Source of the DNA: Flavobacteriaceae bacterium
GTDB taxonomy: Bacteria; Bacteroidota; Bacteroidia; UKL13-3
Assembly: GCA_009693575.1 (NCBI GenBank)
Contig: SHWZ01000007.1
Span: 1-64,000 of the forward strand
Direction of reading: 5' to 3'
Length of the DNA stretch: 64,000 nucleotides
Shown here: positions 4,050 to 55,837 of the stretch, in pieces
Position numbering within the stretch: the first letter of the stretch is position 1
How the letters are laid out: every line of letters starts with the position of its first letter
Position numbers and translations under genes: made by a program
The notes under the pieces: generated by a model
The model's input: the letters and a program-made list of their open reading frames with translations, nothing else
Told to the model about the DNA's origin: nothing
The model's database searches: none

Positions 4050-4107
4050 TGGTTGGCGATCCCGATAGCTATCGGGACCTGACCACAGGCAGCTTTACCG
4101 CCAACCA
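4050..4107. repeat. Nested inverted-repeat / three-way-junction element
   Basis: Outer 9-bp stem TGGTTGGCG(4050-4058)/CGCCAACCA(4099-4107); inside it the 18-bp palindrome TCCCGATAGCTATCGGGA (4060-4077) and CCTG-ACCA-CAGG (4078-4089). Confidence 0.7.
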
Positions 4108-23214: not shown

Positions 23215-23251
23215 ACAAAAAAAGCCCATCAATTGATGAGCTTTTTTTTCG
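23215..23251 (-). terminator. Terminator
   Basis: Minus strand AAAAAAAAGCTCATCAATTGATGGGCTTTTTTT in the intergenic region between gpsA and the M4 protease. Confidence 0.55.
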
Positions 23252-23429
23252 TAATTCATTCGTGGCCTACAGAAGGCACGTAGCATATTCCATCTTCTCA
23301 AATCCTATCTCTGTACTCAAAGTAATATGACTAACGGTTTCAGCCATAAAATTTGGAATCATCGTTTGGGTAAAATGGTTAGAGTTGTTTCAAGGTTGTT
23401 GGACGAGAAGCATTTAGAGGGCTTGGCCT

Positions 23430-23530
23430 GCGTGAGGGATGGCAGCGGCATCCTCGTTCCGATAGCTATCGGGACGAGATACAGCGGACAGCCCGACCCC
23501 AGTTGTATTATGGTTCCACGGGGGGCACGC
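23430..23530. ncRNA. Candidate structured RNA element containing the dispersed palindrome
   Basis: Outer stem GCGTG(23430-23434)/CACGC(23526-23530); GAGGGATG..CATCCTC; CTCGTTCCGATAGCTATCGGGACGAG (23453-23478); CCCC(23497-23500)/GGGG(23520-23523). Confidence 0.5.
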
Positions 23531-23550
23531 CATCATTGGAATTTTTCAAC

Positions 23551-23582
23551 AAAAAACCCCGACTTCAAAAGCCGAGGTTTTT
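23551..23582 (-). terminator. Rho-independent terminator of M4 protease gene
   Basis: Minus strand AAAAACCTCGGCTT-TTG-AAGTCGGGGTTTTTT. Confidence 0.85.
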
Positions 23583-23602
23583 CAAATCATTCAAGTATTT
23601 TA

Positions 23603-26600
23603 CTATTCCTTCACCACCCTGTAATGGTTTCCGCCCACTTCAAGTATATATACTCCCGCTGCAAGGTTGTGTATTGGCAATGTGAAGCTGCCTTGCTTTT
23701 GCACTTGCAGGTATACTGTTTTACCTGAAATGTCGAACAGTTTGCAGGTGGCTGGGCTTTGCAATCCTTGCACATAAAGTATATCGGTGGCTGGGTTGGG
23801 GAAAAGCAGCAGCCCTGCTCCTACTGAAGCAATGCCCACATTGAAATTGACAGAGAACTTGTAGCTAACTGTATCGCTGCCACAGCCATTGATGGCTTTA
23901 AGCAACACACGGTAGCTGCCGGGAGTTTTGTAGGTGTGCTTGGGGCTGGTGAGGCTGCTGGTGTCGCCATCGCCAAAGTCCCAAATGTAGGAGATGGCCT
24001 GCGATGAGAAATTGAAGAAACTAACCATGGGGTTGCCATTAGGGGCACTCCAGTTGAACCCTGCAAGTGGCTTAGGCTTCATAGTGAGCAGCACGGGTTT
24101 GCTGGTCTGGTTGCAGCCATCAGCATTAGTTACTTTGCAAGTGTAGTTCATACCCGATTTGGCATACATGCTTGCTCCCGTTTTGTTATTGCTCCAGGTG
24201 TAGGTTGTAAATCCAGCGGTGGCGGTCAGTTGTACACTATCGCCCTGGCAAAAGTCTAGTGGCCCTGCCGGAGTAATGCTCACAGGGCTCATAGCTGGTT
24301 TCGAAATCACCTGTTCGGTGAGTGAATCATTGCTGCCATCCACATCCAAGCTCCACGATGTCCAGGCATCCATGACATGGTTTCCAAGTGTGCTGAGGTC
24401 GGCGGTGGTGGCGAATGTGAGGTCTTGGGTTGCATTGGGCTGTAGAGTGAAAGTAAAATTTTGGCTAACCACCGAACCATTGTCAAGTTTAAAGCTCACA
24501 GGAACGGTCACATTGTTCATTGGGCTACCAAAGTTCATTACTTGCACCTTCACCGTTTCGGCATTGCCCAGCCCGCAGTTACTCACAGGTGAAAGTATTT
24601 GCACCACACCTACATCAGGGTCCTCTTTCCAGATTCGTATATCATCGAAACTAAGACCATCGCCCTGTGTGCTTGGAGGGGGGTTGGCTTCCCCGTTATT
24701 CTCTTGCCCAAAACGCAATTGGAACGATTTGCTCAAGGTGGTTTGCCCAGCAGTGGCCAGTTTCCCTGAAATGTCAATAGCGGTCACGTCTTTGTATGCT
24801 CCCTGCACTGCATTACTAAATGTATTGTAAACTTCTACCCAGTTGTTGTTTTCGCTTGCTCTGGCCCACACACGGTCGTTGTTGTTGCTTTCATCGCCAT
24901 GGCTGGCAAATGAGAAGTCAAGGAAAATTTTGTTGTTTTTGTAGTTATCCATGTTCAGGGTAAGGTATAGGTAGTTAATAGGCCAAGTAGTGCTATTGGG
25001 GCTTTGGTCTAAGGTTATAGCTTTGCTCCCACTCCTTGCAAATCCTGTTGTCCCCACCCTCATACGTCCGTATCCTGGTTTGCTTGTATTAAAGTCATAT
25101 TCGTCAGTGCTATCTACTCCAATCATTTCCAATTGGGTTGAGAACTGTCCATCATTTTCAAAGTCCTGATAATAGGGTAGTGCTATTGGGTCGTTCTTTA
25201 TCTGTTTCAATTCGAAACCATAGATGACATTGTTCTGCGTGTTTACTGTGTCATTTGGGTATTTTACCCACGAGTCAATGCTATAATAACCTTGGCTACT
25301 TAGGTCGGCCTTTGTATTAAAAGTATAAAGCAAGGTATCGCCGCTATTAATGGTTTGGGTAATGGTTTCGCTCACCACAGAGCCACCGTTTATTTGGTAT
25401 TTCACAGGCACATTGCTAATCGTATTGCTGCCAAAGTTTTTCACTAGCACATTGATATTTTGGCTGCTGCCCAATGCAAGGCTTGTGTTCATCCTGCCAT
25501 TCCTGTTTCGCATTTCCACTACTCCGGCATCATCAGGTATCTTTAGGTAGCACTGCCAGTCCATTTGGAAACCTGAGAAATTCAACCCAGCATCACTCTG
25601 CTGCCTAATGGTGACTGAGCTGCCTGAGGTAACTAGTGTTCCTCCATTTGGTAATGAGTTCCCAGTATATCTTCCTATTAACTTCGCAGCAGTAGTTGTG
25701 CCATCATATACATATAGATAATCACCCGGATTTTCCATATTGAAACTAGAGAATGTGAGTTTAATATAGGAGGCGTTGGTAGGTGAAAGGGTGATATTTC
25801 CATCAGATCCATCAAAGTAATTATTTAGTCCTCCATTATCGAGCAATGTTCCTGTGCAAGCTGTCTGCACATTCCCAGTTCCTGTGCGTGGCACTATGAT
25901 AGATTTACAATAGCTAAGCCCACTATCCACTTGCACGTAAGCAACTTTGGTCATTGAATCACTTCCACCCAAACAACCTACAATTTTTAATTTAATAGTA
26001 AAATTGCCAAATTTGCCGTACACATGAGTTGGGTTTTCCGAGGTTGAAGTTTGTCCGTCACCAAAATCCCAACTGTAGGAAGCCGCCATAGAACTGTTGT
26101 TGAACAATTTCACTTGGTCGCTAGGAGAACAATACATAGTTGGATTGGCAATAAGGTCGGCCTTCATCATGGTGTCGAAAGCTCCGCCCACATTCACTGC
26201 ATACCAAGCATTTGTAGTATGCTTCACAACTTCGCTACATATTCCATACAAATCTTTAGCTGCCTTTATTGCGTAAAAACGGGCATCAATATATTTACTG
26301 TTCCGAGTCAAGTAAAAAGCATCGTTGCGGTAAGCTATTTGTCCAGCAGTATCAATTCCCAAGCCTTTTACATCGTAGGAATTCCCCTTGAAATTAGTGG
26401 CTTTCTCTCCTTTGCTCAATAGATAAAACCAATGATTTTGTACGCCACTATTCGTGTGTACTCCACCATTGTCTGCTGCACCTGTGTACCAATCTGCATC
26501 GCCGTATGCACCAGGGTCACCCATTTGATTTGGATTGGCCATATTCCTCAATCCATTTCCGCTTGTGGTTATCTCCTCCCCTATTCGATAATTAGCCTTG

Positions 26601-55819: not shown

Positions 55820-55837
55820 TCCCGATAGTTATCGGGG
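55820..55837. repeat. Copy of the dispersed CCCGATAGCTATCGGG-type palindrome
   Basis: TCCCGATAGTTATCGGGG, followed by GGGCAGACTGACAA shared with 36278-36291. Confidence 0.6.

Follow-up and report, generated by a model that had tools for sequence, protein, structure and literature searches.

The element between gpsA and an M4 metalloprotease gene in this Flavobacteriaceae bacterium is a copy of Flavo-1, and on balance we read Flavo-1 as a dispersed intergenic DNA-level repeat with constrained arms and an exchangeable tip. Its structure is most probably maintained at the level of DNA, both in the genome of the window (the whole stretch of 64,000 nucleotides that was analysed) and in its relatives. 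Flavo-1 (RF01705) was the sole Rfam family matched in the window. The match, at 23421-23502 on the plus strand, scored 48.2 bits against a gathering score of 42 and covered the whole model, positions 1-76. A preliminary description of this DNA, whose sequence and coordinates were found to be as described, had named Flavo-1 as one candidate beside an undescribed family, and the Rfam match identifies it as the former. Comparison with relatives showed that two stems, P1 and P3, reach beyond the 76-position model. The features of the window copy are:

23417-23531, plus strand: extended Flavo-1 element, predicted to form a three-way junction of P1, P2 and P3 (DNA similarity among copies of the same genome; covariation in relatives)
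23421-23502, plus strand: match to RF01705 (48.2 bits, gathering score 42)
23430-23434 with 23526-23530, plus strand: P1 closing stem, GCGTG/CACGC (covariation in relatives)
23436-23446 with about 23484-23494, plus strand: lower P2 arm, GGGATGGCAGC with GCGGACAGCCC (covariation)
23450-23480, plus strand: upper P2 arm and exchanged tip (arm common to the copies of the genome, tip different)
23457-23474, no strand assigned: 18-bp palindrome TCCCGATAGCTATCGGGA at the tip, with one change (TTCC...GGGA) (14-bp core present exactly at 28 genome sites; boundaries sharp at 18 bp)
23497-23525, plus strand: P3 hairpin, CCCC with GGGG (sequence and comparison with relatives)

Most of the helices drawn in the preliminary description were recovered. 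The closing stem GCGTG/CACGC covaries in relatives, the near-perfect hairpin is present around 23454-23477, and the CCCC/GGGG hairpin at the 3' side, with 23497-23500 pairing to 23520-23525, was confirmed though it is variable among relatives. The helix GAGGGATG/CATCCTC was not upheld; in copies from other genomes the conserved pairing is instead GGGATG with CAGCCC, and the pairs supported by these copies are GGG(23436-38)/CCC(23492-94), T23440-A23490, G23441-C23489 and GC(23445-46)/GC(23484-85). The RNA minimum-energy fold of the window copy favours the GAGGGATG/CATCCTC type of pairing, which competes with the conserved helix, and a fold with DNA parameters recovers the covarying P2 arm. Averaged across 55 full-length copies, the lower P2 pairs had a probability on the plus strand of 0.72 with DNA parameters compared to 0.50 with RNA parameters, a preference that is only suggestive since DNA parameters gave 0.24 on the minus strand. 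The RNA fold energy alone was not unusual (z = -1.56) and the structural case therefore rests on comparison between copies.

About 130 Flavo-1 copies from about 30 genomes were oriented. Most copies of the window subtype consist of P1 (5 bp), a single A, P2, P3 and the 3' side of P1, usually with CCCAAA, while a second subtype, TAGCC...AAGCTCC (found for instance in genome G046), has P2 in common and is without the P1/P3 layout. With tips and P3 removed before scoring, 10 of the 12 scored pairs had two-sided changes in 46 distinct copies and 99.1% of cells paired; none of 500 shuffles and none of six slid versions approached the observed pairing. This strong covariation agrees with the earlier proposal of a structured element. 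Covariation of the P2 base pairs contained in the Flavo-1 model was upheld in sets of 46 and 123 copies, and the AGCGG motifs in this arm were conserved and unpaired. Relatives have two-sided changes in all five P1 pairs (GCGTT/AACGC, GCGTG/CACGC, GCATG/CATGC, GCGTA/TACGC, GGCTT/AAGCC, GGGTT/AACCC and GCGAT/ATCGC), of which only the two inner pairs are unbiased because the three outer ones anchored the search for the partner strand. At the innermost pair 29 copies had T-A, 15 had G-C and two had A-T, and none had a wobble pair.

The strong covariation and the conserved unpaired motifs are also what would be seen if Flavo-1 were a structured RNA, either an sRNA or a UTR element, with a core that binds a protein or ligand and an outer tip free of constraint. 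We regard this as rather unlikely. Wobble pairs were few: the seven core pairs of 123 copies gave 845 Watson-Crick, eight G-T and two A-C cells (0.9% G-U), and in the first copy set the stems of tip and P3 gave 558, three and six, respectively, compared to 63 G-U to 698 Watson-Crick pairs (8.3%) in tRNAs from the same loci, the one class used for comparison. Summed over core, tip and P3, G-T and A-C cells numbered 11 to 8 with no clear strand preference. Taken by themselves, the core pairs tend towards G-T, 8 to 2 (p = 0.11), as expected of a plus-strand RNA, and this tendency counts against the DNA reading. Taken together, the rarity of G-U and the lack of a clear strand preference favour, without proving, selection or correction acting on DNA. 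In the published transcriptome of Flavobacterium psychrophilum, Flavo-1 matches were indiscriminately sense or antisense to transcripts, many fell outside any transcript, and no consistent transcript is tied to the family (PMC9723704).

In its distribution Flavo-1 is patchy and multicopy. The model found seven matches in the genome of the window, where DNA similarity revealed about 12 full or partial copies, some of the fragments being located near contig ends. Among 57 relatives Flavo-1 was found in 23, with 1 to 32 matches each, and in some genera one species had ten matches and others none; class-wide it was found in 92 of 290 genomes, with 1 to at least 15 matches each. As for MITE-like mobile elements, many similar copies thus lie at unrelated places and their occurrence is patchy between relatives. 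Copy numbers of up to 32 together with absence from close relatives, and an inconsistent orientation to neighbouring genes (a rough ORF count had the flanking genes pointing both ways), speak against a structured RNA. The proposal of an independently transcribed RNA is consequently not supported, given the patchy multicopy occurrence, both gene orientations, the near-absence of wobble and the published RNA-seq.

A role at transcript ends, as a terminator or an mRNA-stabilising hairpin resembling REP sequences, was also considered. The element is an intergenic hairpin, the window copy is located downstream of the M4 protease gene, and in G046 the right-hand gene is mostly directed at Flavo-1 (13 to 4). 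However, other genomes were without such an orientation, no T-run directly follows Flavo-1, and the protease gene has a hairpin with a T-run of its own, located between the gene and the element. We find this role quite improbable. Both neighbours are located on the minus strand: gpsA carries NAD_Gly3P_dh domains, and the large M4 metalloprotease carries PKD, CUB and Por secretion-tail domains. A plus-strand ORF that spans the element (23327-23728) matched no Pfam family and is likely to be spurious. Terminators for the flanking genes had been described on both sides of the element; inverted repeats are indeed present there (23217-23248 and about 23549-23582), whereas a terminator scan reported none by its criteria.

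The palindrome at the tip is itself dispersed. Its 14-bp core was counted 28 times in the genome of the window compared to none for a reversed control, an abundance far beyond chance, and the boundary is sharp at 18 bp, with the outer pairs changing together. The core was found in 25 of the 57 relatives, with up to 53 sites, and mostly lies between genes (of 65 genome sites, 11 were within ORFs versus 54 expected). Across the 57 relatives the correlation between palindrome and Flavo-1 counts was not significant. Among the matches listed from GTDB genomes, all palindrome records were from Bacteroidota except one titled 'uncultured bacterium'. The palindrome was present on 37 stretches of viral contigs, and the one exact Flavo-1 arm pattern searched there gave no match. 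A test for target duplication gave a weak 4-bp excess only. In the open-access literature we found no paper that prints the 16-bp palindrome or treats Flavo-1 as a repeat. Two more palindrome copies lie in the window, at 4062-4075 and, with one mismatch, at 55822-55835, each lying close outside ORFs of 80 codons or more.

Four of the 28 palindromes in the genome were located at Flavo-1 tips, in two intact and two degenerate copies, compared to about 0.1 expected for an assumed intergenic space. Other Flavo-1 copies of this genome have different tips at the same position, such as CCAACTTCCCCTTTGG. A complete Flavo-1 in a genome from an unrelated family (G325) carries the same palindrome as the window copy, and further genomes have other palindromes at the tips: in G042 a different one, CTTCGANNNNCTCAG, is at Flavo-1 tips at 7 of its 42 sites, and in G046 a palindrome other than that of the window is so located at 2 of 54. 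The palindrome had been suggested to be a swappable hairpin arm, and it behaves as one: copies keep their arms, their tips differ, and the tips in other genomes hold other dispersed palindromes. Within G000 or G042 the tip replacements may go back to fewer ancestral captures than were counted. Two matches to palindrome plus arm in G125 and G127 from the class-wide scan appeared by inspection to be due to chance. Judged by eye, the tips of Flavo-1 copies belonging to other families at seven loci (L404, L405, L412, L413, L414, L426 and L430) resemble further dispersed Bacteroidota palindromes.

The strongest individual case comes from an orthologous intergenic locus in the genus of G046, where tips could be compared at one position. 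In four species the two neighbouring genes lie close to each other there, and each of the four has Flavo-1 between them. The same arms are present in each, with compensatory changes (CCGG/CCGG, CCTG/CAGG and CTTG/CAAG), and the four species have four different tips. The tip of G450 contains AACTGAAGGTTTACGAACCTAGTTCAG, which the tip of G456, similar in other respects, does not have; allowing up to three mismatches, the AACTGAAGGTTTACGAACCTAGTTCAG hairpin was counted eight times across three of the four genomes, the one in G450 alone being inside Flavo-1. At another locus (L389) Flavo-1 lies about 100 bp from a AACTGAAGGTTTACGAACCTAGTTCAG hairpin. The one locus followed yielded no site that lacked the whole element, all four syntenic species being occupied. 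Occupation in all four also fits an old functional element, and retention at the same place is in agreement with a structured RNA.

Hairpin repeats in many copies bring to mind REP sequences moved by a RAYT (Y1_Tnp) transposase, either for Flavo-1 or for the tip palindrome. Palindrome counts rise with Y1_Tnp counts (rho 0.44, 57 genomes) and two palindromes adjoin Y1_Tnp genes (L144 and L146). In contrast, Y1_Tnp was not found in the genome of the window, which is 92% complete, and was missing from five of the nine genomes that had four or more Flavo-1 copies compared to 4 of 48 others (p = 0.003). The palindrome flanked 3 of 40 Y1_Tnp loci, once with a mismatch, and nearly all remaining loci examined were without it. 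Mobilisation by RAYT is accordingly very improbable, and RAYT was rejected as the driver, there being no link for Flavo-1 and a weak link for the palindrome.

Returning to the reading of Flavo-1 as a DNA repeat, the element would fold as a three-way junction made up of the closing stem P1, the long arm P2 with its AGCGG motifs, and the hairpin P3. The arms would be kept through strict Watson-Crick compensation with the P2 tip free to change, and other dispersed palindromes would repeatedly be inserted or exchanged at this tip, which here carries TCCCGATAGCTATCGGGA, a palindrome that occurs across Bacteroidota. The constraint on DNA may be exerted on a hairpin or cruciform, perhaps bound by protein, and copies may spread as a non-autonomous element. 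A tip could change when a hairpin-cutting nuclease opens it and repair inserts another hairpin fragment, or through template switching between hairpins during replication. A putative transposase or binding protein was not identified, which we count against the DNA-repeat reading. More tentatively, and with less than even confidence, Flavo-1 may be less an RNA than a recombining or mobile DNA three-way junction across Bacteroidia, with a tip that repeatedly docks or exchanges unrelated small palindromes through a hairpin-processing route and so builds nested repeats of interchangeable parts.

Compared to the Flavo-1 family, which belongs to the same phylum (RF01705; Weinberg et al., 2010, PMC2864571), the element has the same P2 arm, matches the whole model and is extended by P1 and P3. 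Rfam types the family as an sRNA gene, whereas in our reading it is a dispersed repeat whose tip can be exchanged. REP/BIME sequences with RAYT are partly alike, being multicopy intergenic hairpins with variable loops, but Flavo-1 is without a link to a RAYT gene and is not a member. Integron attC sites are imperfect hairpins with a variable tip, and Flavo-1 has both of these in common with them. Unlike attC, Flavo-1 is without a fixed recombination box, because the P1 bases vary with compensation, and this comparison was dropped. In so far as their published descriptions go, repetitive and double-hairpin elements of mitochondria are alike in outline, as scattered hairpins without an obvious enzyme, although they belong to other organisms and their sequences are unrelated (PMC2800124, PMC7218506).

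Flavo-1 is counted among the abundant sRNA families (PMC9029176). If it is a DNA repeat, the sRNA annotation in many Bacteroidota genomes is misleading. Tip exchange, if true, would document in nature the spread of short palindromes that lack their own genes, and orthologous loci allow this spread via tips to be tested directly.

Some further repeats were observed close to Flavo-1. Upstream of five of the seven copies in the genome of the window (L002, L004, L005, L006 and L007) is another repeat, GGTCACTGGTTGGCGTCCCCGCC or a sequence near it. In L007 a small hairpin, GTCCCGCTAAGGCGGGAT, on the 5' side separates the GGCTTGGCC leader from the P2 arm, and P1 is displaced. A stretch of 253 bp at 98% identity is common to L385 (1-253) and L380 (1279-1530) on contigs 11 and 34 of the same genome; its end falls within the 5' arm of one copy of Flavo-1, and the break represents either a rearrangement or an assembly junction.
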